Source: a virus. From it: a DNA stretch of 27,470 bases. Below are positions 6,053 to 27,469 of this stretch, in pieces (positions within the stretch are counted from its first letter, which is position 1; every line of letters starts with the position of its first letter). A model generated the notes under the pieces. It did not search any database. It saw only the letters and a list, made by a program, of their open reading frames with translations, and had not been told where the DNA came from. Both the position numbers and the translations under genes were made by a program. Location: positions 1 to 27,470 of the IMG/VR virus record IMGVR_UViG_3300022074_000297, one strand, 5' to 3'.

Positions 6053-7288
6053 ATGGCTTTTAGATTAGGGGCAGCTATTGGTGGTGCAGCTAAACGTGCA
6101 TCTGAAATACTGGATAAAGAACGTGAAGAAGCACTTACTAACACAGAAGATGAAATTAAAATTCTTACTCAAATAGGTTTACCTAAAGCACAAGAACGTA
6201 GGTCAAAAAGAATAGAAAAAGAAAAAATATATGATTCTTTGTCTAAACATTTTGATGGTGATGATATTGCTGTGATAATGGCAGAAGGTACAGGACAAAA
6301 AGTCTTGGACCACATTGACTCTATGACAAAAAAGTACGAACAATATAAAGTTAATCCTAGAGAAATTGTTACGCTTGATCCGGGTCAAGAAGCGCATGGA
6401 TATACTAAAGATCAAGTTCTTAACCTTGTAATGGGTAAAGTAGATAAAGGTGTACCTGTATTAGATGCTATGGATCAAGTTACAGGTAAACAAAGAGGTA
6501 GTGGTCTTACAGGATTGCTGGGTGGAAACTTAGATAATGTTAGAACAGAAAGAATGAATGCTATAGCAAATGCTACCGGAGTTTCTATGAGTGAATTAGC
6601 AGCACTTGCATCCGATAGTATTGTATATGATGATGTACAAATTAAAGGAAAAACACGTTTGTTTGACCCTGCTGCTGCAGCTACTGCTACTAAAGATACA
6701 TATACTGCCGCACAAATGGATGTTAAACTATTATCTGGTATTGGGTCTCAAATTAAAAGTAGTGAATCTGCAGGTTATGGTGGTCTATTTGACGAAGATG
6801 TTATATACAAGTTTACAGATAATAAAATCGCAACTGCAGTAAATCAAAAAATAAGAGAAGTCACGTTACAAAAAAGAAAAGAAAAAGAAGAGGGTGGTGA
6901 CTATGGGGCATTTAACACCCAAGACTTACAAGACATGGAAAATGCACTAAACTCGTGGGTTAAAACTGCTAAAGTTGGTGATACATATATTTCAACAGAA
7001 CCTGAAATAGTAGATAGTAAAGGTCAAGAAGGTAAAGGGCCACTTAATCTGGAAGGTTTAGGTATTGCAGAATTAGAAAGAACATTAAATGAAGAACTAA
7101 AACCTCAAGATGGAAAAATTATAGATGCAGTCACGGCTAATGTCATAGCAAAACAAATACGTGAAGCTATGATTGCTCTTGATTCTAATCTTACAGAAAA
7201 AGATATAGATGATGGTATTAATAGAGTACTTAGAAAGTATGGATATAATAAGGACACTGAAGGTAGTAAAATAACAGTTACTAATTAA
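6053..7288 (+). CDS. Probable internal virion protein, 411 aa
   Basis: The protein begins with a Gly/Ala-rich amphipathic segment (M-A-F-R-L-G-A-A-I-G-G-A-A-K-R-A) followed by a long charged helix (about 15-70) with E-K-E-R-E-E and K-R-I-E-K-E-K. The rest is mostly helical and soluble, with a short Gly-rich turn near residue 150 (G-L-T-G-L-L-G-G-N) and a charged C-terminus. No catalytic motif or membrane span is recognised. It lies between genes for likely ejected proteins and shares their AT-rich, Lys-rich character, so I infer an internal or ejection protein. AGGAG inside the previous gene, about 8 nt before the ATG, supports the start. The family is not recognised. Confidence 0.55.
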   Translation: MAFRLGAAIGGAAKRASEILDKEREEALTNTEDEIKILTQIGLPKAQERRSKRIEKEKIYDSLSKHFDGDDIAVIMAEGTGQKVLDHIDSMTKKYEQYKVNPREIVTLDPGQEAHGYTKDQVLNLVMGKVDKGVPVLDAMDQVTGKQRGSGLTGLLGGNLDNVRTERMNAIANATGVSMSELAALASDSIVYDDVQIKGKTRLFDPAAAATATKDTYTAAQMDVKLLSGIGSQIKSSESAGYGGLFDEDVIYKFTDNKIATAVNQKIREVTLQKRKEKEEGGDYGAFNTQDLQDMENALNSWVKTAKVGDTYISTEPEIVDSKGQEGKGPLNLEGLGIAELERTLNEELKPQDGKIIDAVTANVIAKQIREAMIALDSNLTEKDIDDGINRVLRKYGYNKDTEGSKITVTN

Positions 7289-7299
7289 TAGAGGACATA

Positions 7300-10200
7300 A
7301 TGTTCAAAGCCTACAATGAAATTGACGAACTGGATAAAGAAACACTGGCATCTGATGATGAATTTATCTCAGATGCTGTTTCTTTTTTAGAAAACCGTGG
7401 TGGTCTTAGTGGTGAGATGACTCGTGAAGACGTGTATAATAATTTTATGGAACATATGCGTTATCACGATGTCAATGAGATAACTACTTTGCGTGACCTT
7501 GAATATGCACAAAATGCAAAACAAGAAGATAAAGAAGGTTTTGCTAGACTAATAGACGCATATGATAAAGTAGATGATACAGATACCGGGCGTATGTTAG
7601 GTGACTACGCTATGGGTTTGCTAACAGCACCATCTACCTACATAGGTCTTATCACAGGCGGTACAGGCAAAGCTGCTGCTGTAGCAGGTACACAAGCTGC
7701 TAAGTTAGGTGTCCGTAAAGTTTTAGGTAATATTGGTCAGTCGGCTGTACGTGCCGCTATACCAGAAGCCGCTATGGGTTTTGGTCAAGGTGTTGCCCAA
7801 GAAGCTACTCGTGTAACTACGGGACAACAAGAAGAGTTTACAGGTGGTAGAACAGTGACTACAGGTATTGCTAGTGGTATAGGCGGCGGTGTATTTGGTG
7901 GGTTAGGTGCTGGTGCTGGTATGCTTACTGGAAAGGGGGCATTGTCCCGCGCAGAAAATGCAAACGAACTACTTGAAGCAGCTAGAATAGGTGCAGCAAA
8001 AAAAGCAAAAATAGCTGCAGAAAAATCAAAACAAACCCTAAAAACAGCAGATAAAGAAAAAATCAATACAGTAAGAAATACATTAAACGCTTTAGACCCA
8101 GCTAAAGTAGCAGAAGGTCGTAGACTAAAAAAAGATTTAAACCCAAGTGAAACACTTGAAGCGTCCCTTGGTTCTGAAGTGTTTGAAAATATCATGGCTG
8201 CTGCCATTAGAGTAAAAGATAAATTAAATATTGTTGATGATGTTTTGTATAAACAAGGAGATACTATACCTGCCGGAAAAGAAGTTGGTGATGTAAAGGT
8301 AATGGGAGACCGTATAACCACAAAGTTATATGATGCTATGCGTAATGGAGAATTAGAAAACCTTGGAATTGGTAATATTTTACGAGAACATAATTTGAAT
8401 ATGGATCAATTTTCTCTCGTATATTTAGCTGAAGTTTCACAGGCTGGTCGTATTCTAGGTATTCAAGGACAGTTGTCAAAAGCGTTAAAGAAAGCTAAAC
8501 CAGAAGAGTATGCTAAAATAAATAAGTTACTTGATGATTTAGATGATCTTAGTCAAGACTCTGTATCTAGTATAACACGTAAAGAAGCAGAAGATATAAT
8601 AGGTAATAGCCAGTTAAGGGAAAAGTTTTTTCAGGGTGTAAGAGATATAGATAAATTTGGTGTTGGTGCTATGACATTGCAACCAGCAACTACCATGAGA
8701 AACACCATAGGTGGTGGATTTCGTATAGGTGTAGATGCGGCAACAAGAACAATGGATAACTTAGTTCAGTCTCTTGTGGATTCAAACACTAAGGGTTATT
8801 TTGCACCTAAAAGAGGTTTGTTTGATGGTTCCTTAGATGTTGCAAAATATATGTTTAATCCTCAAGAGAGTAGAGTTGTACGGACTTTGTTTGAAGAAAA
8901 CATGCCAGAAGAAGCAAAAAGACTTTTCAGAGATGCGGCAGATTTATCAGCAGCTACAGACGCAGAAACTAAGTTAGCTAAATTTGGAAGAAAATTACAG
9001 ATACTAAATACATCATCTGATAATATATTTAAGCAAGGTGTTTTAGCTGCATCACTAAAACGCAGGTTGTCAGATAAAGGTATGAATCTTTATGACGTAA
9101 TTAAAGACGGTTCTTTTGGAGATATACCTGAAGATATATATCAGGCTGCAGTAAAAGATGCATATGAATTTACCTATCAATCAAGTATGAAAGGTAAAGA
9201 TATATTTAGTACTACTGCTAGAGGATTTATCCGGGCTAATGATAAATACCCTATTGCTATATCCGCATGGATGCCGTTTCCTAGATTCGTAGCTAACCAA
9301 TTAAAGTTTCAATATCAACATATGCCACTTATAGGTATGTTAGATGTAGTTGCTAATCCATCTATTGCTAGAGAACGTATACCAAAACAACTAGCTGGTG
9401 CAGCCATGCTTACAACAGCATATGCGTGGAGAGCAAAGCAGGGCGATGGCGCAGAATGGTACGAAATACACAAGGGTGGAGATGATTATATTGATGGACG
9501 GGCAATCTACGGACCTATGGCCCCATTTATGCTTATAGCAGATATGATATATCGCGCACAAACAGATACTTTTTCTAAACTGCCTCAGTCTATGGGCAAG
9601 TACTATTCACAAGCACTACTACAAGCAACACTTGGTTCTACATTTAGAACTGGTATGGGTATAGCTATGCTTGATAAAGTATTTGAAGATGGTATTAAAA
9701 GTGGTAACACTAAAACTATAGCAGAAGGTTTGGGTAACTTTTTGGGTCGTTGGACTATTCCAGCCGGAATAGCAAAGGATGTTTATGGTCAGTTTGATCC
9801 TCGTTCAAGAGATATTCCAACTACTTCTACAGGCGATGAAAACTTTTTCGATTACGTATATAAAAAATCAACTAGAAATCTGCCCGACTTTCCTTTATCT
9901 TCTTGGTCTGCTGGCCTTCTTGCGGATGAAGACTATGACACACCTGCTTCCTCTCCTCTTAAAACAGGAACACTGCGTGCTATAAACCCAATAGAAAAAC
10001 AACTATTTGGTGCTACTACTATACGTAAAAATACAGTTATGAAAGAAATGTCAAGACTAGGTATGTCTTATACAGATATGTATAGAAGAGATAAAGACGA
10101 TAAAATAGATTTCTATACTAGGCAAGAATTATCTCGTGCAGGTGGTCCTAATAATTTAAATGAAAGACTACGTAAAGTTATAAATACTCCTGAATATCAA

Positions 10201-10530
10201 AATGCGCCACGGGCTTTTCAACAGGATATGCTAGAAAAATCAGCGAGTGTAATAAAAACAAAGGCACAAAATGTGGCAAAGTTACGTCTACAAGCACAGG
10301 CTAGGCGTAGAGGATTGCCTTATAGCAGAGTTGAAATAGCTAAGTGGGATAGCCTATCTAAAAAAGTAAAAAATAGAATTAATGAAGTGTATCAAAGCTA
10401 TGATGGTTTTGAAGGTAGAACTGTAGGAGAAGATAAAGATATGTCAGTTGATATAGGTGGCAGAAGAGTTAATGCACTCCTATGGGCGTTGCGTGAGGCA
10501 CTACCTATTGCAGAAAGAGGTATTCAATAA
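7300..10530 (+). CDS. Very large internal virion / DNA-ejection protein
   Basis: This 1076-aa protein is among the largest in the window. Residues about 100-215 are Gly/Ala-rich and weakly hydrophobic (G-L-I-T-G-G-T-G-K-A-A-A, then G-I-G-G-G-V-F-G-G-L-G-A-G-A-G-M-L), like segments that could insert in or cross a membrane. A Lys-rich helix follows (about 230-275). The central region (about 450-680) contains T-L-Q-P-A-T-T-M-R-N-T-I-G-G-G and S-S-D-N-I-F-K-Q-G-V-L-A-A-S-L-K, a pattern I associate with large core proteins of marine phages and with the C-terminal domains of phage polyvalent proteins. No lysozyme or transglycosylase motif was found. The likely role is forming or filling the ejection conduit. 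Its stop overlaps the next start (TAATG). AGAGGA precedes the ATG at 7300. Confidence 0.6.
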   Translation: MFKAYNEIDELDKETLASDDEFISDAVSFLENRGGLSGEMTREDVYNNFMEHMRYHDVNEITTLRDLEYAQNAKQEDKEGFARLIDAYDKVDDTDTGRMLGDYAMGLLTAPSTYIGLITGGTGKAAAVAGTQAAKLGVRKVLGNIGQSAVRAAIPEAAMGFGQGVAQEATRVTTGQQEEFTGGRTVTTGIASGIGGGVFGGLGAGAGMLTGKGALSRAENANELLEAARIGAAKKAKIAAEKSKQTLKTADKEKINTVRNTLNALDPAKVAEGRRLKKDLNPSETLEASLGSEVFENIMAAAIRVKDKLNIVDDVLYKQGDTIPAGKEVGDVKVMGDRITTKLYDAMRNGELENLGIGNILREHNLNMDQFSLVYLAEVSQAGRILGIQGQLSKALKKAKPEEYAKINKLLDDLDDLSQDSVSSITRKEAEDIIGNSQLREKFFQGVRDIDKFGVGAMTLQPATTMRNTIGGGFRIGVDAATRTMDNLVQSLVDSNTKGYFAPKRGLFDGSLDVAKYMFNPQESRVVRTLFEENMPEEAKRLFRDAADLSAATDAETKLAKFGRKLQILNTSSDNIFKQGVLAASLKRRLSDKGMNLYDVIKDGSFGDIPEDIYQAAVKDAYEFTYQSSMKGKDIFSTTARGFIRANDKYPIAISAWMPFPRFVANQLKFQYQHMPLIGMLDVVANPSIARERIPKQLAGAAMLTTAYAWRAKQGDGAEWYEIHKGGDDYIDGRAIYGPMAPFMLIADMIYRAQTDTFSKLPQSMGKYYSQALLQATLGSTFRTGMGIAMLDKVFEDGIKSGNTKTIAEGLGNFLGRWTIPAGIAKDVYGQFDPRSRDIPTTSTGDENFFDYVYKKSTRNLPDFPLSSWSAGLLADEDYDTPASSPLKTGTLRAINPIEKQLFGATTIRKNTVMKEMSRLGMSYTDMYRRDKDDKIDFYTRQELSRAGGPNNLNERLRKVINTPEYQNAPRAFQQDMLEKSASVIKTKAQNVAKLRLQAQARRRGLPYSRVEIAKWDSLSKKVKNRINEVYQSYDGFEGRTVGEDKDMSVDIGGRRVNALLWALREALPIAERGIQ

Positions 10531-12878
10531 TGAAAGCTGTGCAGTCATATCTAGATACGTCTTTAAAAGAAATAGATGACAATGAAGTAGACGATCCTGT
10601 GTACGAATATGGCTTGCCATCAGAAGAAGAGGCTGGCTTAATTGGTACTGTACGTAATCTGTATGCCCCACAGCGTAGAGAAGTTATCAAAGCACCAGAA
10701 GAAAAGCAAGTACCTTTAGAAGATTTAGGTATGGATTCTATTCCCGGCGAGACTATGACAGTCAAAACTCCCGGTGAGTATGGTCCTGTTGAAACTGACT
10801 TTAGCTATGCACCTATAGTAAGAGGTGCTAAATCTGTACTTGACTATGGTAAAAAACTATTCTCAGATAAACAGACACAGGAAGATACTGTAGAGGCTCT
10901 AAAGGCTGCACCTGCTGCAGCAGTAGAAGGTGGTGGTAAGTTCCTAGAAGATCAGATGGCTGCAGCAATGGGTATGTCGGCTGGCTATTCGTCTGTAAAC
11001 AGACCTGATGGAGAGGTAGCTAGGTTTGATCCTCTTGCCTTCACAGGGGCTGTAGCACCCGCTGGTATCGCTGCTGTGAGTTCAGCCAAAGCTGGTGAGA
11101 CTGTGCTTGGTATATTTGGTAGTACCATGGGAAAAGGTTCCAGAAAACGATTTGATAAATTTACTGAAGAAGCAGAGAAAGCAGATGATTTAGAATTTGA
11201 CACACCAGAAGCACGTGAAGAGTATCTTTTTCAAAAAAGTAAAGGCGTATTTGTAGATGAGGCGGGTGATCCAAGATTTGAAATTGCTACAAAGGATGTT
11301 GATCTACTTCCCTACTTTAAGCGTAGAAATCTTGTAGAGGGTGCATCTGACTCATATGAAATTACACCTGATCCAACCATGCGGTCAGAAACAGTACTTG
11401 CAGATGTATTAAAGTTCGATGAATTATTTAATGAGTATCCTGCACTAAAAAACTATATAGTAGAACCATTGTCTGAAGAAGACATTCTGGATGGAACAAC
11501 AGGTACATTTTCCCCTAGTACTACCACTCTAAAGGTTGCCCCACAAGAAAGAAAACAATTTCTAAGTACTTTGCTACATGAGGTCCAACACGCCGTAGAT
11601 GATCTTGAAGGTTTACAATCAGGTTCTTCTCCTAATATGTTTACTACTATTAATAGTGAACACCTTGGTGCTGAAAGGCGAAACTTTTTTTATTTTTTAA
11701 CCAATAAAGAGACATCGGATAGTCTTGATAAATATACCCCTGACGAATTAGAAATATTAAAATCAAAAGAACATAAAAAATTAATGCCTCTTGCATTTAG
11801 TGGGCTTGATTTTACTAAACCAATGGATGAACTTAGAGATTTATATAGACCTATTATTGCAAAAATGGCAGACTGGGAAAAAGAAAATTTTGATAAATTA
11901 GTTCAGCTACAGAAAGAATCTGTTTTAGATTCAGATGAAACATATAGAAAATATAGGGGAACTCCGGGGGAAGTAGATGCCCGTAATGTAGAAAAACGAT
12001 TTTTAAATCCTGAGTTACAGTTAACTTCATTACCAAAGAACACAGCCGATACAGATAAACTTTTTGGTTTGGTTGATAAAAGAGGTGATAAAGTTTCTAG
12101 TGTTTCAAAAAACACAGACACAATGACTGCTGCAGGACTAACTCAAAAAGATGTAGAAGCATGGCGTAAAGCAAATGAAACAAGTGAAAAGTTTAGAAAA
12201 CGGCTAAAAGGAAGAAATGAAACTTTACAATCTTTAGCAAAACGTTTAAAAGATAAAGATATTACTGTTAAAGAATATAGAGAAGCTGCGGATGCCATAC
12301 GCCCTATACGCAGGGTAACAGATATACCTCGCCCAGCAACTTCAAAAGAAATCATTTCAGCTTTAGGCGGTAGAGAAGGTGGTAGAGGTATTGTAGGTTT
12401 AAATAGAAATATTCCAGATGGAGAAGAAATATCGGCTCGTTTAGATATTAATGCTTACACTAATTATGATGTATGGATTCCTACATTAATGCACCAAAAG
12501 AAAACTTTATATTCTCCAAGTGTTTCTTTACGAAATGTTAAATTTATTCAGCCTGACAGTCCAGCAGTTAATAAAGCATTAAAAGTAGCTACAGGATCAG
12601 AAAAAAGTCCCTTTGCTGTAATGACAGGTAATTATAATAAAATGTCAGATAGTGATGCTTTTGATTATGCAAAACAAGTGTTTGATGATGATGAGTGGAT
12701 ACAAATAGGATATGATCCAACCAGACGAGGTTATTTTTATGATAGGGCAGATGGCGCACCTGTATTGGAAGCAGAAGAAGTTGTGCAAATAGGTCATTTA
12801 GTATTAGCAAAAAAAGCACGTAAAGGTAATCCAGAAGATTTTACATTTGCCAAAGGCGGTTTAATGGCAAGAAGGTGA
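10530..12878 (+). CDS. Virion-associated protein with HEXXH metallopeptidase-like domain
   Basis: In this 782-aa protein, residues 1-150 are acidic and probably disordered, with Gly/Ala-rich stretches near 130-190. At about 250-360 comes the block D-V-L-K-F-D-E-L-F-N-E-Y-P, followed by T-L-L-H-E-V-Q-H-A-V-D-D-L-E-G with H350, E351 and H354. Downstream, G-E-V-D-A-R-N supplies a candidate third zinc ligand (E481). That trio matches the zincin-like domain found in large polyvalent proteins of phages. The remainder (500-750) holds a charged coiled coil and mixed alpha/beta sequence, and the protein ends K-G-G-L-M-A-R-R. It is the last gene before a terminator. I infer a packaged protease-like effector or maturation factor; the substrate is unknown. 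From about 11640 the gene is visibly more A/T-rich than its 5' part. Confidence 0.7.
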   Translation: MKAVQSYLDTSLKEIDDNEVDDPVYEYGLPSEEEAGLIGTVRNLYAPQRREVIKAPEEKQVPLEDLGMDSIPGETMTVKTPGEYGPVETDFSYAPIVRGAKSVLDYGKKLFSDKQTQEDTVEALKAAPAAAVEGGGKFLEDQMAAAMGMSAGYSSVNRPDGEVARFDPLAFTGAVAPAGIAAVSSAKAGETVLGIFGSTMGKGSRKRFDKFTEEAEKADDLEFDTPEAREEYLFQKSKGVFVDEAGDPRFEIATKDVDLLPYFKRRNLVEGASDSYEITPDPTMRSETVLADVLKFDELFNEYPALKNYIVEPLSEEDILDGTTGTFSPSTTTLKVAPQERKQFLSTLLHEVQHAVDDLEGLQSGSSPNMFTTINSEHLGAERRNFFYFLTNKETSDSLDKYTPDELEILKSKEHKKLMPLAFSGLDFTKPMDELRDLYRPIIAKMADWEKENFDKLVQLQKESVLDSDETYRKYRGTPGEVDARNVEKRFLNPELQLTSLPKNTADTDKLFGLVDKRGDKVSSVSKNTDTMTAAGLTQKDVEAWRKANETSEKFRKRLKGRNETLQSLAKRLKDKDITVKEYREAADAIRPIRRVTDIPRPATSKEIISALGGREGGRGIVGLNRNIPDGEEISARLDINAYTNYDVWIPTLMHQKKTLYSPSVSLRNVKFIQPDSPAVNKALKVATGSEKSPFAVMTGNYNKMSDSDAFDYAKQVFDDDEWIQIGYDPTRRGYFYDRADGAPVLEAEEVVQIGHLVLAKKARKGNPEDFTFAKGGLMARR

Positions 12879-17665: not shown

Positions 17666-18509
17666 CTACATCTCCTATGTATGATGTAATTGGTGGCACT
17701 TTGGCTTTCGACATTACTGCTGGGCGTTCTGTTATATTATCCCAACAATCCATGCGAAAACTACAAAACCGACAACCATCGTTAAGTACTTTATTGCCCG
17801 TCTCCTTTCCTCTAAATGTCTCTGGTACTGGTTGAAAACACTTTTCAAACTTATTCTCCTTTACTGCGTCTGCTGTTGCTTGTATCTTAGCAACTTCTGT
17901 GTCTAAGTCAAGACCTGATGCTGGTACGTATTTGAACTGACCATTAGCTTTGTTGACTACCCACCAGCCACCAACATCCTTACCGGATGCTTTAGCGTAG
18001 CCAGCAAGCTGTCCTACATAACCAAAGCCATCACCACTAGCTAACTTATCATACGACTCAAACTTATTTGCGTATGACCACGGTGATGCAGACTTTATGT
18101 CATCAACTGCACCATCAATAACGACATCATATGTTCCATTGATGGAAGCGTCATCCAATTCCAGTGTAACGTGTTCAGGTTCTTCATAACGTACTCCCGC
18201 TTCTCTTAGCAAACCTTTGAATACTGCTTCTACAATATCTCCAATCATCATATTCATTATGAATGTAGTTGGCTTCGGTAATGCTACCTCTGGCTTATTC
18301 TTTTCGTACCAGAGTTGGCAAGTGGGGCGACCCACATTAGACATGCGTAACTTGAAATCGCCCCGCTTTTTACCACTGCCAAACTGCTTATGCAGTGCTT
18401 CGGCAACATCAGAAGAGACCTGTTCAATAGTCTCCTCTGACATTTCTGTTGTGCCTTTGACTGCATTCTCCAAGTATTGATGGAGAGCAATTTCAGCGCG
18501 GTGATGCAT
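17655..18509 (-). CDS. Cas4/RecB-like PD-(D/E)XK nuclease with Fe-S cysteines
   Basis: In this 284-aa protein the nuclease core is residues about 85-190. It includes helix I-G-D-I-V-E-A-V-F-K, G-T-Y-D-V-V-I-D (D128), V-D-D-I-K-S-A-S (D137 and K139) and the helix Y-V-G-Q-L-A-G-Y (Q167 and Y171). One cysteine before the core (C64, R-P-T-C-Q-L-W-Y) and three after it (C246, C249, C255 in C-R-F-C-S-F-R-M-D-C) match the Fe-S cluster layout of Cas4/AddB-type nucleases. Such enzymes degrade DNA ends, generating single strands for recombination. The start overlaps the previous stop as TAATG. The neighbouring putative ssDNA-binding protein and endonuclease I suggest a common DNA processing and recombination pathway. 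No CRISPR locus is nearby, so an adaptation role is not supported. Confidence 0.82.
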   Translation of the reverse strand: MHHRAEIALHQYLENAVKGTTEMSEETIEQVSSDVAEALHKQFGSGKKRGDFKLRMSNVGRPTCQLWYEKNKPEVALPKPTTFIMNMMIGDIVEAVFKGLLREAGVRYEEPEHVTLELDDASINGTYDVVIDGAVDDIKSASPWSYANKFESYDKLASGDGFGYVGQLAGYAKASGKDVGGWWVVNKANGQFKYVPASGLDLDTEVAKIQATADAVKENKFEKCFQPVPETFRGKETGNKVLNDGCRFCSFRMDCWDNITERPAVMSKAKVPPITSYIGDVVVP

Positions 18510-19405
18510 TATGCTACCTCTTCTTCATCTACTTCAATATCAACTAGGTCATCGACTACATCAATATCTGCATCTTCCATGTCTGCATTGGCTTTCTCTG
18601 CCCAAGCATTGATGATGTAGTTGTTGTAGTTGTCAACCCACGACATGAAGTCACCGAACAGTACTTGGTCTTTTTCAGTCAGTTCGATTACAGTGGTAAC
18701 ATCTAGTGATGCCACAGGCACGTAGTATTTTGCACCTGTAGGTATTGTGCGTTCATCTGTATTAGCAGTGATGATATGCTGGATAGGCAAGCGTTGCATC
18801 TTAGCTAGAGTAGTAAAGCTACTGCCAATTTCTTTGAAGGCATCACGGTTGTCAATCTCCCAGATGAATGGTGTAGGTGCAACCTCAACAGCCTCACCCT
18901 TTTCATTCACAGGGTTAACCAACTCAACCTCACCAAATACGACACGCACTCGCTTGATAGACTTTAGCAAGTCCTGTTGAGACTTGGGTAGTGCCTTCCA
19001 ATCTTTGATGAAGCCAGCAGGTTTGCCACAGTTAAACCCACCGTTGTTGTCCTTCAAGTCGATGTCAAGTGTATCTGCCATTACGCTTTTGACGTAACGG
19101 TTAGGATTCTTGGCATCACCCTGAATGAAACGCTTGTGCATGAAGCGTTGCATGAAAGGACGCATCTTGATGGATGACGCATAGTGAGTCGGCCCATCAG
19201 GAATCTCTAGTTTGTATGCACCACCTTCGACTACTTCAACATTAACACTCTTACCATTAACCTCTGCTGTACCCATGATAGGTGCATGATTAATGCGTAG
19301 TCGTGCAAGCGAACTAGAAGAAGATGATGTCTTCTCATGTGCGATACCCATAGCTTTTGCCATAGCCGCAAAGTTATTTGTATCTACTGTTGTCAATTGT
19401 GTCAT
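18509..19405 (-). CDS. Probable single-stranded DNA-binding protein
   Basis: This is a 298-aa protein with a mixed, beta-rich body and a strongly acidic C-terminal tail (last 25 residues, containing D-A-D-I-D-V-V-D-D-L and ending D-E-E-E-V-A). The tail is a hallmark of phage and bacterial ssDNA-binding proteins, where it recruits partners. A Ser-rich linker lies near residue 26. No standard OB-fold signature is recognised, so the call rests on the tail, its size, and its place as the first gene behind a strong promoter. DNA polymerase lies directly upstream and the nucleases directly downstream. AGGAG is six bases before the ATG. The alternative is an unrelated abundant early protein. Confidence 0.5.
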   Translation of the reverse strand: MTQLTTVDTNNFAAMAKAMGIAHEKTSSSSSSLARLRINHAPIMGTAEVNGKSVNVEVVEGGAYKLEIPDGPTHYASSIKMRPFMQRFMHKRFIQGDAKNPNRYVKSVMADTLDIDLKDNNGGFNCGKPAGFIKDWKALPKSQQDLLKSIKRVRVVFGEVELVNPVNEKGEAVEVAPTPFIWEIDNRDAFKEIGSSFTTLAKMQRLPIQHIITANTDERTIPTGAKYYVPVASLDVTTVIELTEKDQVLFGDFMSWVDNYNNYIINAWAEKANADMEDADIDVVDDLVDIEVDEEEVA

Positions 19406-19438: not shown

Positions 19439-19467
19439 GTTATATCACGCTACGTCTTTAGTGTCAA
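19439..19467 (-). promoter_or_regulatory. Sigma70-type promoter before the ssDNA-binding gene
   Basis: TTGACA (19462-19467), a 17-base spacer and TATAAC (19439-19444), with TGA directly before the -10 giving an extended -10 (TGATATAAC). The -35 lies in the last codons of DNA polymerase, and the polymerase stop codon TGA is the extended -10 itself. An inverted pair CGTAG / CTACG (19435-19439 and 19450-19454) flanks the -10. Downstream the next gene starts about 35 nt away. Confidence 0.85.
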
Positions 19468-21484
19468 GCCAATTCGGGCCGATTTTTGATTCCAATAACA
19501 ATGGAACATTAAAGTTTATGCCCCATCGTAGTGCAATCAGATTAGGTAGTTCATTGTTTGTATTCTCTATTACCTGTATGACTGCATCCTCTTCATCGGG
19601 ATGTACATCAATTACAATTGAATCATGTACTGTGTTTACTACACATGACTGCATGTTGTCAAGCAGTTTATCAATATGCAACAGTGCAATCGGTACAATA
19701 TCTGCTGTAGCGAATGACTGTACAGGGTAATTCTTTATCTGCGTAAAGTATGACACACGGCCATTTGCCTTACGCACTACATCAGGGAAAGAAAACTCAC
19801 GACCAGAAGGTGTGACTATCTTCTGTGTCGTTATAGCTTCTTTAGCCAATCGGGAATGCCAATCTGAGACCCCTGTGTACTTTTCGTTGAAGTGTTCGTA
19901 GTATGCAGCTTCCGCTTTTGTTCGTCCGTACCCACTGGCACCGTAGAGTGGTGCAAACGTGTGCGCCTTCGCATCTTGGCGAGACGTATGTTGACCAGCA
20001 TCGGTAATAACTTTAGCGGTATATGCATGTACATCAAATCCAGTAGAGACTTCTTCAATTGCAACTCCATCCTGTGATAAATATGCGGCGGCTCTGAACT
20101 CCAACTGAGCAAAGTCAGCTTCCAGTATCTTACCACCATCCCATCGTGACACAAATACTTTCTTTACAGGAAACGTGCCGCCACGTGGCATGTTCTGCAT
20201 ATTAGGATTAGCACCCGACAATCGGCCTGTCGATGTACGATGTTGTAGTAGGCTGACATGCAACATGCCATCCTGTTTGGTATAGTTACTGATACCATCA
20301 ACGAATGATGACAGGTATGTATCTACAGCACTCAGTCTACGCACCTTCGATAAGAACTCAACTGCATCATCCATACCTCTTGTCTTAGCACCTGCCTCAA
20401 GCAACTGCAAGTTATTCTTGCTGGTACTAAAGCCATTAGCTGATGCCCACTTAGCTGTAGGTGGCTTGAACTTGAAGCCAGCCATAGTGTCAGTGGGATT
20501 GAACAGGAAGCCAGACGTACCACACTCAGGGCATTTACTTGGCTTGGCAAACGGCTGACCATTCTTCTTTGTCTTACGTATATAGCCACTGCCTTTGCAC
20601 GTAGGACACTGCACTGCATTAGTACGGTACATACGCTGTGTACGTGTAGCCACAAGCTGTCTGAACTCATCGTCAGGCATGTATGGGTCAATGAGTGTAG
20701 CCCAATCATGCTTGTCAATGACCTTACGACCGTAGATTACCCAAGACAACTGCTCTGGGCTATTAAGGTTGATAGGCGTATCACCCATGACCTTGCGTAC
20801 ATAAACCTGTAAATCGTCAACAAGTTGACACTTCTCCTGTTCAAATTCTTGACGCACTTCCTCAAGCGCACTCAAGTCAACCTTGAACCCACGCTGGTAT
20901 ATACGTGCCAGTGTGACACATACCTGATTAGTAAGCACCACAGTATCGTTTAGGCTAGAACTGTCTGACTGTAGCTGGCGCATCAGCTTATCTGATAGCT
21001 GTTGCGTAGCATGTAGGTCAGCAGATAGATACTCACACAACTCAGCATGTGGTATGTCTCGTGTGCTGTAGCCCTTCTTAAAGTACTCTTTCAGAGTGTC
21101 CTGTTTCTTTGTATCTAACTCATAGCGTTCAGCACAAGCCTCAAGCGACAGTGGTTGTTTCTGACCACGCTGTAGCACGTACTCGCCAAGCATAGTGTCA
21201 AAGACAGCACCATCATACTTGAAGCCTGATTCCCACAGCCACATCAAATCATATGCGGCATTGTGTGCGATGATTACAGTAGCGGCATCAAGAAACTCTT
21301 GTACCAATACGTGTCCATACTCATCTGCATCTACCTCACTGTGGTCAAAGGTAACTATACGTTCAACACCTTGGTCAGTCAGCATACCCACCATAGTCAG
21401 TGAGTTCTCTGGCTCAAAGGGGTCAAGGTGTAACTTACCATTACGTTCTGTTGTTGTATTCTCTACATCTAATGTTAGCTTCAT
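19445..21484 (-). CDS. Family-A DNA polymerase with DnaJ-like zinc insert
   Basis: This 679-aa polymerase has an N-terminal 3'-5' exonuclease with D6/E8 (L-D-V-E-N-T), N75/D79 (H-N-A-A-Y-D) and Y152/D156 (Y-L-S-A-D). Two zinc-ligand pairs follow at C293/C296 (C-P-T-C-K-G-S-G) and C318/C321 (C-P-E-C-G-T-S-G), a partial DnaJ central-domain pattern. The C-terminal polymerase has T-S-T-G-R-L-S-G, motif A (D457 in A-D-F-A-Q-L-E-F-R), motif B (R502, K506, F510, Y514, G515) and motif C (V-H-D-S-I, H620 and D621). Position F510 corresponds to E. coli Pol I F762. The insert between exonuclease and polymerase is the signature of HMO-2011-type marine podoviruses. It replicates the phage genome with the adjacent primase and helicase. 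The start overlaps the helicase stop (ATGA). Confidence 0.95.
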   Translation of the reverse strand: MKLTLDVENTTTERNGKLHLDPFEPENSLTMVGMLTDQGVERIVTFDHSEVDADEYGHVLVQEFLDAATVIIAHNAAYDLMWLWESGFKYDGAVFDTMLGEYVLQRGQKQPLSLEACAERYELDTKKQDTLKEYFKKGYSTRDIPHAELCEYLSADLHATQQLSDKLMRQLQSDSSSLNDTVVLTNQVCVTLARIYQRGFKVDLSALEEVRQEFEQEKCQLVDDLQVYVRKVMGDTPINLNSPEQLSWVIYGRKVIDKHDWATLIDPYMPDDEFRQLVATRTQRMYRTNAVQCPTCKGSGYIRKTKKNGQPFAKPSKCPECGTSGFLFNPTDTMAGFKFKPPTAKWASANGFSTSKNNLQLLEAGAKTRGMDDAVEFLSKVRRLSAVDTYLSSFVDGISNYTKQDGMLHVSLLQHRTSTGRLSGANPNMQNMPRGGTFPVKKVFVSRWDGGKILEADFAQLEFRAAAYLSQDGVAIEEVSTGFDVHAYTAKVITDAGQHTSRQDAKAHTFAPLYGASGYGRTKAEAAYYEHFNEKYTGVSDWHSRLAKEAITTQKIVTPSGREFSFPDVVRKANGRVSYFTQIKNYPVQSFATADIVPIALLHIDKLLDNMQSCVVNTVHDSIVIDVHPDEEDAVIQVIENTNNELPNLIALRWGINFNVPLLLESKIGPNWLDTKDVA

Positions 21485-22704
21485 GCTGTATACCTCGCTG
21501 TCTTATAATCAAGTTCACAGTGTACCACACCATGCCAACCTGACAACTTATTTTTTACCACATTCAAATGCCGTTGTGTATCTTCTTCTTCCTGATTGTC
21601 AACAGGCGGGTTCTTTGCAATCAGCACCATAAGGTCAGCCTCTGCCGCCTTACCTGTCCGACTACCTTCCATCATGCTTTGATTAAGCAGAACCTTACCT
21701 TCTGCATCAGCAGACAACTGTGACATATAGAATACAGCACACTCGTGTTGCTTGGCAATCATACGTGCATGTATTGCATTGGCCTTTAACGCCTCATCAG
21801 GACGTGCAAAGCCGCCTGTCCTAGCAAACTTGTCACCCATGTCCAGAAGAACTAAGTCAGGCTTGTACGCCTTGCATATGGACTCTACCCACGACATATC
21901 ACGGCCTGTAGCATCCTTGATCTTGATACGTTCCTTGACAGGTGCATACAAGTCACGTGCCTTGCTTGGGTTCTTCTTGATTTCCTGCATAGTCATACCA
22001 GTAGCGGCAGTCAGGTATCTAGCACCAACACGATGATAGCCTTCCTCGTTACACAAGATAATGCAGTTAGCACCCTGATGTGCAAAGCCACCGGGCGATG
22101 CGATCAGTGAGGCATGAAACGATGTCTTACCTGTGTTGGGTCTAGCACCCACCTCAATCAAGTGACCAGCATTCACACCTTCCACCTTACGTGTCAGGCT
22201 AGGTATGTTGAATGTCCATCGTGCCTCAAGGTCATTACGTGCAAGCAATGTCTCAAGTTCGATGTCATCCCACTCAACCTTGGCACTAGGTGTGAAGTCA
22301 TCACCATACTGTTCAAGTATCTGACGCAGTGGGTCAAGGCTAGTCTTCATACCATCCACGTAGTCACATCCTAGTGTGGCAATCTCTTCGCCAATGACCT
22401 TCTGGAACAGCTTGGATAGCACCTCTTGTGCTACGTCACTGCCCATCGGCTGTTCACGTTTGATGTTGTTGAACAGGGATGAGTATGCTTGTTTCTGTGC
22501 AGTAGTCAGCGTTGGATTGTTTGCCATAAACAATGCCTCAATCTCATCGGGTGTCACAGTACGTTCATACCGTTCCATAGCACTGTCGATAGACTGCTTG
22601 ATCTTACGTACATCTTTACTGAACAAGCGATCTGGACAACGTGATCCACGATGTTCCTCATAAAAATCCCTATTCATTAGGCTTCTAATTAGTGATAATT
22701 CCAT
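21481..22704 (-). CDS. Replicative DNA helicase, DnaB/T7 gp4-like ATPase
   Basis: This is a 407-aa protein. The RecA-like core starts near residue 170. Walker A is G-A-R-P-N-T-G-K-T (186-194), a catalytic Glu pair sits in I-I-L-C-N-E-E-G (about 216-222), and Walker B is L-V-L-L-D-M-G-D (about 284-291). A later block V-F-Y-M-S-Q-L-S-A resembles helicase motif H3, and G-S-R-T-G-K-A-A-E-A-D resembles motif H4. The N-terminal 160 residues are helical and would contact primase. Unlike T7 gp4 there is no primase domain, because the primase is encoded separately just upstream. It unwinds DNA at the fork. AGGAG precedes the ATG by nine bases. Confidence 0.9.
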   Translation of the reverse strand: MELSLIRSLMNRDFYEEHRGSRCPDRLFSKDVRKIKQSIDSAMERYERTVTPDEIEALFMANNPTLTTAQKQAYSSLFNNIKREQPMGSDVAQEVLSKLFQKVIGEEIATLGCDYVDGMKTSLDPLRQILEQYGDDFTPSAKVEWDDIELETLLARNDLEARWTFNIPSLTRKVEGVNAGHLIEVGARPNTGKTSFHASLIASPGGFAHQGANCIILCNEEGYHRVGARYLTAATGMTMQEIKKNPSKARDLYAPVKERIKIKDATGRDMSWVESICKAYKPDLVLLDMGDKFARTGGFARPDEALKANAIHARMIAKQHECAVFYMSQLSADAEGKVLLNQSMMEGSRTGKAAEADLMVLIAKNPPVDNQEEEDTQRHLNVVKNKLSGWHGVVHCELDYKTARYTA

Positions 22705-22708
22705 GTGG

Positions 22709-23476
22709 TTATTCTCCTATCTGTTTGTGGATAGCCTCTAGCTTCTCCATGTCTGTCGGGTTTCTGTATTTTATATCATCTTCTAGTTTTAGTAAACGTA
22801 CATTCTCTACATAGCCTCGTAATTCTTTTACCATCTGTATTGATTTGACTAGCGCATCGGGGTCTAGTGCAATCACTGCCGTTGAGAACTGTGCAAGATA
22901 CCTTTTATGCGAATCTTGGAGAGATGTACCAAGAAGCGCAACCCCGACAAAGGAACCATAACCAACAATGGCCGCACTCACACAGTCCTCAACAACTACA
23001 GCGACTTTACCACAACCTGACGTGTATGGCAAGCCACTTTTTCCATATCTTTTCCATTTAGGAATACGTTTACTCAATGTCCTGCCTGTCGCATCAACCA
23101 GCTTGCCATCATGTACGACAGGAAATACCACACGGTCTTCCTTTACATCATACATCAGGGCATGTTCATCCTCATTGATACCCCACTCAGCGCACCACTT
23201 AACAACGGCACGTTTATTACGATGTGGGACTACGTATGCAGGTAACTCAAATGTATCCTCTGTTGTATCAGTAACAGGGTTAAGGCGTTTCTGTACGTCA
23301 CTGATAGACAATGGCACACGAGTACCACCACTGACAGTACAACTCACCTTGTAGCAGTTCCATACAAGATTACCCATATCATTAGTGATACTAAATGTTC
23401 TGTCACCCTTACAGACAGGACAGTTCATGCGTTTAGTCTCGCCATTGGCAACATCATAGTCACTTGGATTAATCAT
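22709..23476 (-). CDS. DNA primase (zinc ribbon plus TOPRIM), separate from helicase
   Basis: This is a 255-aa protein. The N-terminal zinc ribbon has C19, C22, C41 and C46 (C-P-V-C and C-Y-K-V-S-C), as in T7 gp4 primase. A TOPRIM core follows with E163 (A-V-V-V-E-D-C-V-S-A) and D205/D207 (I-A-L-D-P-D-A). It makes RNA primers for the polymerase and acts with the helicase encoded four bases downstream. It lacks the helicase half of T7 gp4, so the two activities are split between genes. AAAGGA stands before the ATG. It is the first gene after a strong promoter and an AT-rich leader, which marks the start of the core replication operon. Confidence 0.9.
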   Translation of the reverse strand: MINPSDYDVANGETKRMNCPVCKGDRTFSITNDMGNLVWNCYKVSCTVSGGTRVPLSISDVQKRLNPVTDTTEDTFELPAYVVPHRNKRAVVKWCAEWGINEDEHALMYDVKEDRVVFPVVHDGKLVDATGRTLSKRIPKWKRYGKSGLPYTSGCGKVAVVVEDCVSAAIVGYGSFVGVALLGTSLQDSHKRYLAQFSTAVIALDPDALVKSIQMVKELRGYVENVRLLKLEDDIKYRNPTDMEKLEAIHKQIGE

Positions 23477-23551: not shown

Positions 23552-23581
23552 CTTATATCATGTATTCTTACGTGCTGTCAA
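23552..23581 (-). promoter_or_regulatory. Sigma70-type promoter before primase
   Basis: TTGACA (23576-23581), an 18-base spacer and TATAAG (23552-23557) preceded by TGA (TGATATAAG, extended -10). The TTGACA is within the last codons of the recombinase gene and the TGA of the extended -10 is its stop codon. Transcripts would start near 23545 and carry a leader of about 70 nt before the primase. Confidence 0.75.
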
Positions 23582-24439
23582 GGCATTATTTGCACTGACA
23601 TACGTATTTTTTAGGTAAGGCTTTACTGATTGTGGGTCAGCATGTCCTGTAACCGACATGATTTGTCCTATACCTACCTCTGCATCAACCATTTCAGTCA
23701 CACCTGTACGTCTTAGATCAGATAGACGTAGTTCTTTAGGTAGTCCAGCATCATCCATCAGCTTACGTGCATGTAATGGTAGTTTATACATCGTATATGG
23801 TTCATACACACCCCTGTAAGATGTAGGTCTAGGTGCAACGTAAGGTTGAAAGCCAAAGTCTTGCTCCTGTTGTACTAACATATCATAGAGGTCATCATCA
23901 ATGGGTAGTTCTACCTGTGCATCACGCTTAGATTGTAAAATAATTACACGCTTCTTCTCAAAGTCAATAGCATCCCAAGTTAATACACGCATATCACCTA
24001 CACGCTGACACCATTCGTATGCCATGTGTGCAATAAGACCTATGTTACGTGTGCTAAAATCGCTGTAGGCGGCGTCTAGCAGTTTTGTTACATCTTCCCT
24101 GCTCCATACTACCTTACGCGGCTTGGTGGCTCTTTTACGCACCACTGCGAAGGGATTTACAAAGCAGTGTTCCATGCGTAGGGCATAGTTATATAATATT
24201 CTAGCCATAGCCATGATATGATTAGCAGTAGAGATACCACGATCACACCAGATGTCATAGGCTAACTTAGCTTGTTTGGTGGACAGCTTAGTGCAATCCA
24301 CCTCACCAATGACTACACCCTCGACAGGTGTAGCCAGCGCACTGTTAAGGCAGTATTCATAGTGCGTCTTAGTTTCTTGGCGTAAGTTCTTGTAATCATG
24401 GGACAAATAATATTCATCCGCTACTTGATACAGCTTCAT
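23558..24439 (-). CDS. Tyrosine recombinase (integrase family) with altered box II
   Basis: In this 293-aa protein the N-terminal SAM-like domain (about 1-105) precedes a catalytic domain. Box I has R146 (W-C-Q-R-V-G-D-M-R-V-L) and a beta-hairpin lysine K171 (Q-S-K-R). Box II reads S-D-L-R-R-T-G, so R243 is present but the usual His at 240 is Ser. H266 (T-G-H-A-D) and Y275 (P-Y-L-K-N-T-Y) follow with the normal 23 and 9 residue spacings. It may integrate the phage or resolve multimers. No tRNA-like attachment site or repressor is seen beside it. It overlaps the HNH gene by four bases, so it belongs to an early operon, unlike typical integrases next to attP. Confidence 0.85.
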   Translation of the reverse strand: MKLYQVADEYYLSHDYKNLRQETKTHYEYCLNSALATPVEGVVIGEVDCTKLSTKQAKLAYDIWCDRGISTANHIMAMARILYNYALRMEHCFVNPFAVVRKRATKPRKVVWSREDVTKLLDAAYSDFSTRNIGLIAHMAYEWCQRVGDMRVLTWDAIDFEKKRVIILQSKRDAQVELPIDDDLYDMLVQQEQDFGFQPYVAPRPTSYRGVYEPYTMYKLPLHARKLMDDAGLPKELRLSDLRRTGVTEMVDAEVGIGQIMSVTGHADPQSVKPYLKNTYVSANNALTARKNT

Positions 24440-24771
24440 AAAATGTTATCCTCTCTTTGTTTAGCGGTATGTACAGCATGACAATTAGCACATAATATTC
24501 TACACTTACGCATTTCTTTTTTTATGTTCTGTATGGAACCATTCATCATTTTTGCTATACTAGCAACCTTTGTTTTAGGGTCTATGTGGTCAAAGTGTAA
24601 TGCACTTGGGTGATGTTTATACCCACAAAAGGCACAGCCATACATTAATTTTACCCTATCTACAAAAGGCTTGCATTTTTTATATGCCTTACGGTTTAGT
24701 TCGCTACGCCTAGAGAGATATGCTTTTCTATCTCCTGACGTAAGTAAAGCATGTGTAGTTAGGCGCGACAT
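24436..24771 (-). CDS. HNH endonuclease
   Basis: This is a 111-aa protein with a basic N-terminus. The fold is marked by C46-x-x-C49 (Y-G-C-A-F-C-G), H-F-D-H-I-D (H59, D61, H62) and C94-x-x-C97-H98 (L-C-A-N-C-H), the two zinc knuckles and His-Asp-His of small HNH nucleases. Such short stand-alone HNH proteins in phages are often homing enzymes or act with packaging, which is not encoded here. It overlaps the DUF932 stop (TAATG) and the recombinase start (ATGA), so it is fully inside an operon. Targets cannot be predicted. Confidence 0.85.
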   Translation of the reverse strand: MSRLTTHALLTSGDRKAYLSRRSELNRKAYKKCKPFVDRVKLMYGCAFCGYKHHPSALHFDHIDPKTKVASIAKMMNGSIQNIKKEMRKCRILCANCHAVHTAKQREDNIL

Positions 24772-25601
24772 TATGCCGCCTCAAGTGACTTGAACACAGG
24801 GCTTTCAACCCAGCCAGCTACTTTAACTTCACGCATGAACATTCTTTTTTCTTGTGTGTCACCACCAGTGTTACGATGGGTGAAACCATTACGTTCATCT
24901 GCATAGGTAGCGTAGTTGGTGAAGGCAGAGTACAGTGACCACAGGTTGCGTCCACGTGTGGCTACCTCTTGGTTATATAAGATGTTCATCTTCTCTGCGT
25001 TACGATCAGACTTGAGCAGTGTTTCAAGCATAGCCTTAACATCCACATTGACTAGGCTAGTGTTTGCCCAGCGTTGCATCTGTTCTGCCTGTGCAGTGAA
25101 GTCCTGCTGAGACTTGTGCAGTTCAGTGATAAACTTGTCTATGTTGAAGCCACTGGTGTTCTTACGCATCACCTTGTCATGCTTGCCACGTATCTGCCCA
25201 TTGAGACAGAAGAAGTCGATAGCACCAAAGATGGTGGTGTTAGAACACGTGCCATTCACACCATGTAGGGCGATGATACGCTTCATCAGCGTAGTCTCAT
25301 GCTTGTCAGTAGCAATCTTAGCTGTCACGTTGGGCAGGGTAACGTCCATCATAGCCCAGCCATCCTTGTGTGCGCTACGCCAGCTAATGTGTGCGTCTTC
25401 CATGTCATAGTCCGACAGTGTTTCGGTTGTTGCGTTCATAACCTTGCGGAAGAAGTCACCATGATTGGCACAGGTGAAGTCTTTGCCTACGACACCAATG
25501 TACTCACCTGTATTACCATTGATAACATACTTCTTATCCTCAACTTTAGTAGGTTCAAACTCTACCTCAAAGTCGAGATGTTCTGGAATATATTCTAGCA
25601 T
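24771..25601 (-). CDS. DUF932 / phage-plasmid-like protein
   Basis: This is a 276-aa protein. It has W-R-S-A-H-K-D-G-W-A-M-M, a Thr/Lys stretch with T-L-M-K-R-I-I-A-L-H-G-V-N-G-T and the C-terminal pattern R-N-L-W-S-L-Y-S-A-F-T-N-Y. These match the DUF932 family (phage/plasmid-like protein, TIGR03299 relatives). Members occur in many phages and plasmids with no proven biochemical role. The gene is the first after the promoter at 25632-25660. The AGGAG at 25609-25613 is seven bases before the ATG at 25601; another ATG at 25607 is only one base from AGGAG and is rejected. Confidence 0.75.
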   Translation of the reverse strand: MLEYIPEHLDFEVEFEPTKVEDKKYVINGNTGEYIGVVGKDFTCANHGDFFRKVMNATTETLSDYDMEDAHISWRSAHKDGWAMMDVTLPNVTAKIATDKHETTLMKRIIALHGVNGTCSNTTIFGAIDFFCLNGQIRGKHDKVMRKNTSGFNIDKFITELHKSQQDFTAQAEQMQRWANTSLVNVDVKAMLETLLKSDRNAEKMNILYNQEVATRGRNLWSLYSAFTNYATYADERNGFTHRNTGGDTQEKRMFMREVKVAGWVESPVFKSLEAA

Positions 25602-25616
25602 TTTCATTCTCCTATC

Positions 25617-26734: not shown

Positions 26735-26909
26735 CTTGGTTCTCCTCAAATTTACAACGTGTTGTATAGTACGCCATCAACAGTGCGGCAACCTCTGGGA
26801 ATGTTTCCCAATCAGGTCTGCCGCCTGTCTCAAATATGTATTCAATCTCAGTGTCCATTGCAACTAGCATGGCGTTGACTTGTTTCGGTGGTAGGTTAAG
26901 CGTTATCAT
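26727..26909 (-). CDS. Small protein of unknown function, helical
   Basis: This is a 60-aa protein, M-I-T-L-N-L-P-P-K-Q-V-N-A-M-L-V-A-M, then a charged turn with T-G-G-R-P-D-W-E-T-F-P-E-V and a helix A-A-L-L-M-A-Y-Y-T-T-R-C. Three ATG codons lie in tandem at 26915, 26912 and 26909. AGGAG at 26917-26921 favours the third (spacer seven). The fold looks like two helices. It overlaps its neighbours. No family is recognised. Confidence 0.55.
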   Translation of the reverse strand: MITLNLPPKQVNAMLVAMDTEIEYIFETGGRPDWETFPEVAALLMAYYTTRCKFEENQDE

Positions 26910-27432
26910 CATCATTCTCCTTCATCCATGTGGGCATATCTCTACCCTTGTTATACCTAGCAAAGCGCATCTTGTCAACAATATAGAATGCACGATACGC
27001 AGTAATAGGCCAATCCTCATCTGTCTTGCAGTCATCGTGTCCACTGAAACACTGTGGGTGTGGTGTCAGTTCGCCATCAGGTATGAAATCCCTAGCGGCA
27101 ATGATATGCTGTGGTCTTGCCAGCGCATTAGTTGTGCTAGGATTACCAGCCCCATGCCACTTGCCATACCTGTGATTGTATTCACATAGCATAGAAGTGT
27201 ATAGATTGAAGGCATAGGTAAAGTTTGCACGAGATTCACCTGCCCATATTGTGCATGGGTGTTTGTGATATGCTGGCTTGTACAATTCATGTGCCTCTGC
27301 ATACTCTGGTGCATGTTGCCACACAGTAGTACATAGCATCTGCGCTTCTTCAAGTGGCATCTTGACAATGTGCTGGTCACATAGCTGTCGTGCTATGTCA
27401 TCAGGGTGATGGTCAATAATAAATCTATTCAT
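26896..27432 (-). CDS. Conserved phage protein with D-x-x-H-I-V-K-M motif
   Basis: This 178-aa protein begins M-N-R-F-I-I-D-H-H-P-D-D-I-A-R-Q-L-C-D-Q-H-I-V-K-M-P, with later blocks H-P-C-T-I-W-A-G-E-S, Y-N-H-R-Y-G-K and a C-terminal Y-R-A-F-Y-I-V-D-K-M. I recall the block C-D-x-H-[IV]-V-K-M and the later H-P-[SC]-x-x-W from many phage genomes, where it is annotated as hypothetical or loosely as a pyrimidine-dimer glycosylase relative. The match to T4 DenV is too weak for me to assert it. Several conserved His and Cys (H8, H9, C18, H21) could be a metal or nucleic-acid site. AGGAG at 27440-27444 is seven bases before ATG 27432; the upstream ATG and TTG candidates are too close or unsupported. 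Confidence 0.72.
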   Translation of the reverse strand: MNRFIIDHHPDDIARQLCDQHIVKMPLEEAQMLCTTVWQHAPEYAEAHELYKPAYHKHPCTIWAGESRANFTYAFNLYTSMLCEYNHRYGKWHGAGNPSTTNALARPQHIIAARDFIPDGELTPHPQCFSGHDDCKTDEDWPITAYRAFYIVDKMRFARYNKGRDMPTWMKENDDDNA

Positions 27433-27469
27433 CTTCATTCTCCTGTTTTGGATACCATACCTCAACATC
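27425..27469 (-). CDS. C-terminus of an upstream gene (cut by window edge)
   Basis: A minus-strand frame enters from the right edge and reads D-V-E-V-W-Y-P-K-Q-E-N-E-D-E before TAG, overlapping the start of the 178-aa gene by a few bases as is usual here. Only 14 residues are visible, so nothing can be said about function. Confidence 0.4.
   Translation of the reverse strand, partial: DVEVWYPKQENEDE

Follow-up and report, generated by a model that had tools for sequence, protein, structure and literature searches.

The window analysed here, i.e., the whole stretch of 27,470 nucleotides of the IMG/VR virus record IMGVR_UViG_3300022074_000297, encodes a family-A DNA polymerase with two DnaJ-type cysteine pairs. 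The question raised by this locus is what the cysteine pairs form, where they sit in the polymerase fold and what they do for the phage.

The polymerase and its phage group

The polymerase gene and the adjoining replication genes were assigned as follows.

19445..21484 (minus strand): family-A DNA polymerase, 679 aa, homologue of HMO-2011 gp12 (PF00476, E 2.4e-51; PF01612, E 6.3e-9)
20969..21484 (minus strand): 3'-5' exonuclease domain, residues 1-172, with D6, E8, D79 and D156 conserved
20114..20116 (minus strand): catalytic aspartate D457, motif A
19955..19957 (minus strand): F510 in motif B, equivalent of Pol I F762
19622..19624 (minus strand): catalytic aspartate D621 (VHDS), motif C
21481..22704 (minus strand): DnaB-type replicative helicase, its end overlapping the polymerase start by 4 bases, 74% identical to HMO-2011 gp11
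22709..23476 (minus strand): DNA primase (phrog_47), 75% identical to HMO-2011 gp10

In the Pfam search, the exonuclease PF01612 was found at residues 44-172 and DNA_pol_A (PF00476) at residues 344-673, the latter match beginning at profile position 51. The acidic residues of the exonuclease and polymerase motifs A, B, and C were all present and conserved in the alignment of relatives. The preliminary description, made from the letters alone, had read a family-A polymerase with an exonuclease and the zinc pairs C293/C296 and C318/C321, and these were confirmed in the 679-aa minus-strand ORF. The product serves a marine phage of the HMO-2011 type as its replicative DNA polymerase.

The window polymerase is 77.6% identical to HMO-2011 gp12 over residues 1-678. 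The next-best relatives were the polymerases of CRP-345, CRP-1, and CRP-2, and those of HTVC033P and CRP-3/-235/-212/-738 were more distant. The tree was built without residues 252-348, so the zinc region cannot drive the grouping. In this tree, the window polymerase adjoins HMO-2011 inside the zinc-bearing group, and the sets of 3, 6, and 8 rows containing it are starred. The zinc-bearing group forms one side of a branch with a support of 82/94, which is consistent with a single origin of the group but does not fix it strongly. The minus-strand genes of the window are homologues of HMO-2011 gp6, gp8-gp18, gp20, and gp21 in the same order, with identities of 56% (integrase), 75% (primase), 74% (helicase), and 85% (RNR), and several tail-side genes of HMO-2011 were matched by plus-strand genes. 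The full-length identity, the position within the clade in a tree that omits the zinc region, and the conserved gene order bear out the earlier placement of this phage in the HMO-2011 group. The HMO-type capsid and terminase large subunit are inclusion criteria for the group (PMC9038755). In the 27.5 kb contig, where the matches to HMO-2011 fall in gp6-gp34, neither a capsid nor a terminase gene was recognised; HMO-2011 has those genes at gp47 and gp52.

The polymerases of HMO-2011 (gp12), CRP-1, CRP-345, HTVC033P, and CRP-3 share the domain order, the four cysteines and the replication gene block with the window (PMC9038755, PMC6918029). The window polymerase is approximately 37-78% identical to those of HMO-2011-type isolates, and it differs from them only as a sequence variant of its own, with CxxCxTxG as the second motif. 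A partial DnaJ domain with two CxxCxGxG motifs is a characteristic of the group (PMC9038755; PMC6918029), and PF00684 is already annotated for this protein in the HMO-2011 record. The zinc-module architecture is therefore already published, and the window phage adds one more member to this group. The arrangement had also been called rare, which did not hold, given the abundance of the group: each of two scans based on HMO-type polymerases gave at least about 600 rows, and more than 2000 HMO-type polymerases were reported (PMC9038755).

In the genome collection, four loci were found, all in marine metagenome-assembled genomes (MAGs). They are HMO-2011-type contigs of 55 and 63 kb in MAGs labelled Flavobacteriales and Marinimicrobia, and both bins share contigs. 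Because identical contigs occur in two different bins, no host can be deduced from them, and these placements are likely binning artefacts, not prophages. In the plasmid collection, Pol I-type matches were partial only, and none covered 80% of the query.

Other genes of the window showed uneven relatedness to HMO-2011. The tyrosine integrase (23558-24439, minus strand), at its 56%, stands against 74-78% for the adjoining replication genes; it evolves faster or was exchanged. The DUF932 protein (24771-25607, minus strand) is 93% identical to gp8, clearly above the polymerase. The Pyr_excise pyrimidine dimer DNA glycosylase at the window edge (26896-27468, minus strand) and two large plus-strand ORFs (6053-7288 and 10530-12878) had no match among HMO-2011 gp1-gp38. 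The plus-strand ORF at 7300-10530 is only 22% identical to gp22, and tail-side genes nearby reach up to 98% (35-364). The virion genes are a patchwork of conserved and exchanged genes.

F510, within KAHTFAPLYG, had been equated with Pol I F762, and the alignment to Pol I agreed. The position is an invariant Phe in the alignment of relatives, and Phe was the sole residue found at the motif in the wider set. In the lifestyle hypothesis, Leu stands for temperate and Tyr for virulent phages, and Phe is common in virulent phages (PMC13228545). The group includes integrase-bearing, partly temperate subgroups as well as integrase-less ones, and CRP-3 was shown to integrate (PMC9038755). The suggested value of this residue as a lifestyle marker was not upheld, as Phe is invariant though the group mixes both kinds of subgroup. 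With an integrase gene beside a Phe polymerase in the window, F510 is uninformative on lifestyle here, and this speaks against using F762 to infer lifestyle in the HMO-2011-type group.

The predicted zinc knuckle and its conservation

20510..20608 (minus strand): zinc knuckle, residues 293-325, predicted ligands C293, C296, C318, and C321 with a basic stretch between the pairs (cysteine pattern and conservation)

The motif CPTCKGSG begins at residue 293 and CPECGTSG at residue 318. Of the DnaJ-type pairs described before, the four cysteines stood, but the second motif is not a full CxxCxGxG, i.e., it reads CxxCxTxG here. The DnaJ zinc domain PF00684 matched residues 288-328 with an E value of 4e-5 and 24.2 bits, which is below the Pfam cut-off of 32.7; 47 of 52 diverse members matched PF00684 at E ≤ 0.1.

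The motif was an inclusion requirement in PMC9038755, so its universal presence there is circular. Here, the relatives were gathered by peptide patterns from elsewhere in the protein, i.e., with no selection on the zinc motif. All four cysteines were kept in every one of the 351 loci that cover the region, a count that includes re-fetched copies; the motif stretches number 225 when each is counted once. The complete three-glycine pattern was found in 350 of the loci, and the exception has one Gly changed to Ala with the four cysteines intact. Four further loci had no motif, i.e., three partial genes short of the region and one unrelated distant polymerase. Conservation of the pairs in the closest homologues, on which the preliminary description depended, was thus found throughout, and chance CxxC pairs were ruled out by it.

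The x positions of the cysteine motifs vary among relatives, and K306, G309, and P311 between the pairs show little or no variation. From the first cysteine of one pair to that of the other, the distance is 25 residues in most loci and 37-38 in the CRP-738-type branch. In the first 244 loci, the first motif is always CxxCxGxG; the inner glycine of the second is missing in 78, as it is in the window polymerase.

A profile of five diverse modules had E. coli DnaJ (1exk) as its best PDB match (E 3.6e-4), on repeats II and III, and UvrA, Anti-TRAP, and phage Q proteins matched more weakly. The CxxCxGxG pairs and the repeat II/III spacing are common to the module and the E. coli DnaJ zinc domain (PF00684, 1exk), with a cysteine spacing of 25 in the module versus 22 in DnaJ. 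Judged by sequence, the module fits one DnaJ zinc site, the one formed by repeats II and III, and C293, C296, C318, and C321 very probably bind one zinc ion. Unlike DnaJ, the module has one zinc site instead of two, has no J domain, and sits within a polymerase. No J domain was matched in Pfam searches of the window or the diverse members, and the module holds only two of the four CxxCxGxG repeats of DnaJ. "Partial DnaJ" is a fair label for the knuckle, but the resemblance does not speak for chaperone function.

A DnaJ-like role as in phage lambda replication was raised in PMC9038755. A captured DnaJ piece would recruit host DnaK or remodel replication complexes, as DnaJ does in lambda. DnaJ is the top profile match among solved structures, and two repeats equal one DnaJ zinc site, which would suit this role; but the J domain and repeats I and IV are absent, the match is under the Pfam cut-off, and the thumb loop, where the module was placed (below), is occupied by different inserts in relatives, a point in favour of local elaboration. 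We regard this role as highly improbable. Capture of a DnaJ protein was rejected on account of the missing J domain and the single zinc site.

Place of the knuckle in the polymerase fold

20786..20875 (minus strand): thumb helix H, residues 204-233 (AlphaFold and Klenow alignment)
20732..20758 (minus strand): thumb helix H1, residues 243-251, after NLNS, the counterpart of Pol I NLSS 579 (Klenow alignment and AlphaFold)
20447..20725 (minus strand): thumb-tip insert, residues 254-346 (Klenow alignment)
20483..20641 (minus strand): predicted beta-arm, residues 282-334, with the knuckle at its end (AlphaFold strands 282-284, 286-292, and 326-334)
20381..20419 (minus strand): post-insert helix H2, residues 356-368 (Klenow alignment and AlphaFold)

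The profile alignment to Klenow (E 3e-57) placed INLNSPEQLSWVIY opposite FNLSSTKQLQTILF (Pol I N579, thumb helix H1). In this alignment, NLNS at 239-242 corresponds to NLSS at 579-582 and GFSTSKNNL to GAPSTSEEVL (S608 region), with the module in between. Approximately 93 residues (254-346) stand where Pol I has approximately 13 (595-607). The AlphaFold model, made with 52 sequences for the protein without zinc or DNA, had a pLDDT of 91.1 and a pTM of 0.84. Its elements run in the order of helix H (204-233), H1 (243-251), two small helices, strands, the cysteine region, strand 326-334, and helices 356-368 and 372-401. In a Foldseek search of the PDB, the model hit Pol I-type polymerases with query-normalised TM values of 0.65-0.71. 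The Klenow alignment and the model point with high confidence to a module at the thumb tip, between H1 and H2. The earlier wording, between exonuclease and polymerase, was right in order along the protein but inexact, as thumb helices H and H1 precede the module, which lies inside the polymerase domain. An inter-domain linker was likewise ruled out by the Klenow alignment and the AlphaFold element order. Deletion of Pol I residues 590-613, the thumb tip, reportedly reduced DNA binding and lowered processivity in the work of Minnick and co-workers in 1996.

T7 gp5 is likewise a family-A phage polymerase with a basic thumb insert. Its thioredoxin-binding insert precedes the NPSS motif (gp5 residue 335), presumably between helices H and H1, whereas the window insert comes after NLNS and H1 and has a zinc knuckle. 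The two inserts are thus neighbours, and the site of the T7 thioredoxin-binding domain was rejected for the module; the global T7 alignment is unreliable in the thumb. Plant organellar polymerases also have a lysine-rich thumb insertion (AtPOLI insertion 1), which was proposed as a DNA clamp (PMC7699545), but no zinc motif is reported for it, unlike the window module. The S-beta-alpha-R motif of the G20c polymerase was set aside as a precedent, because in its authors' account it belongs with the 3'-5' exonuclease domain and not with the thumb.

At the thumb site of the window module, zinc-free relatives carry an insert too. In Pol A of Zobellviridae-type, KP34-like, Foturvirus, and Bifseptvirus phages, it is cysteine-free and has a basic YKxGxxxGxPK stretch; the window module has zinc cysteines instead, and the one relative modelled has a plain hairpin. 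In that AlphaFold model, of a Zobellviridae-type N-terminal half (pLDDT 84.3), long strands at 243-255 and 265-276 come directly after H1. The zinc arm and the plain hairpin were aligned by MAFFT, but profile-profile comparison gave no consistent hairpin alignment. From position and topology, the simplest reading is that the HMO-2011 arm would be a zinc-capped, elaborated thumb hairpin. Full-text searching for HMO-2011 together with "thumb" gave no paper in the library covered; the present analysis adds the thumb-tip location of the module and its connection to the zinc-free hairpins.

The Zobellviridae-type polymerases at four loci are encoded as two ORFs that are split near motif A, and in some of them a small ORF separates the two. 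An ICP2 record annotates an HNH endonuclease at this split.

Possible function of the thumb-tip arm

18509..19405 (minus strand): homologue of HMO-2011 gp13, 298 aa, whose C-terminal tail is acidic (net -10 over the final 20 residues)

The module has a mean net charge of +5.5 and a minimum of +2 (147 distinct modules), and whole proteins are approximately 0. From its position in the predicted fold, the arm would lie near the duplex behind the active site. One zinc ion would rigidify the end of the beta-arm, which would derive from a thumb hairpin as in the zinc-free phage relatives. The basic arm would grip the DNA backbone and raise processivity, and/or it would be a docking pad for a replisome partner. 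It would thus be a built-in counterpart of the role played by the T7 thioredoxin-binding insert. We lean, if only modestly, toward a basic thumb-tip arm, stiffened by zinc, that serves DNA grip and/or partner docking. The DNA clamp or partner contact suggested beforehand is plausible and is made more specific here.

Thumb insertions of other family members give some precedent. In the T7 and human mitochondrial polymerases, they are the binding sites of processivity factors, and the T7 single-strand-binding protein (SSB) touches the T7 thumb insert via its C-terminal tail (PMC7699545). Simulations show the basic residues of this T7 insert in contact with the DNA backbone (PMC5984650).

The best local candidate for a partner is the acid-tailed protein encoded immediately downstream at 18509-19405. 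Its homologue, with the acidic tail conserved, lies close downstream of the polymerase in the HMO-2011-type isolates examined too. The tail has a net charge of -10 in the close relatives of the window and a mean of -6.7 over 200 homologues, truncated ones included, and it is weaker in HTVC033P- and CRP-3-type phages. No family was assigned to the product by Pfam or PHROGs, and it had no library match as an SSB. Because acidic tails are typical of phage SSBs, it is a candidate single-strand-binding protein and a candidate partner of the thumb arm.

The module may instead be chiefly a docking site for the helicase or primase of the phage, linking DNA synthesis with unwinding or priming and making no contact with DNA. 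Small zinc modules often mediate protein contacts. The primase, helicase, and polymerase genes are adjacent, in the order seen in HMO-2011, and belong to the core gene set of these phages (PMC9038755). However, zinc-free MEP401 has an identical gene order, so the order does not explain the zinc, and the strongly basic charge suits DNA at least equally. We consider helicase or primase docking as the main role rather unlikely.

Likewise, the knuckle may be a purely structural staple with no contact role, holding the enlarged thumb loop folded in place of longer strands. The invariant cysteines and glycines among mostly variable surface positions would agree with this, as would the plain hairpin that suffices at the same site in zinc-free relatives. 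However, the stretch between the pairs is constrained too (K306, G309, and P311, above), and the positive charge, which folding alone does not require, is never lost. A purely structural role is thus judged unlikely.

The preferred reading, an arm for DNA grip and/or partner docking, can be carried further, and only tentatively. The arm could be a self-contained, zinc-capped thumb clamp, evolved from an ordinary Pol A hairpin, that makes the enzyme processive with no need for thioredoxin or another host factor. If this is true, abundant marine phages have another design of thumb module, with an insertion point different from that of T7. The "DnaJ domain" of HMO-2011-type phages has long been a marker feature lacking a structural address. 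Its placement at the thumb tip speaks against the reading as a captured chaperone and makes its function testable.
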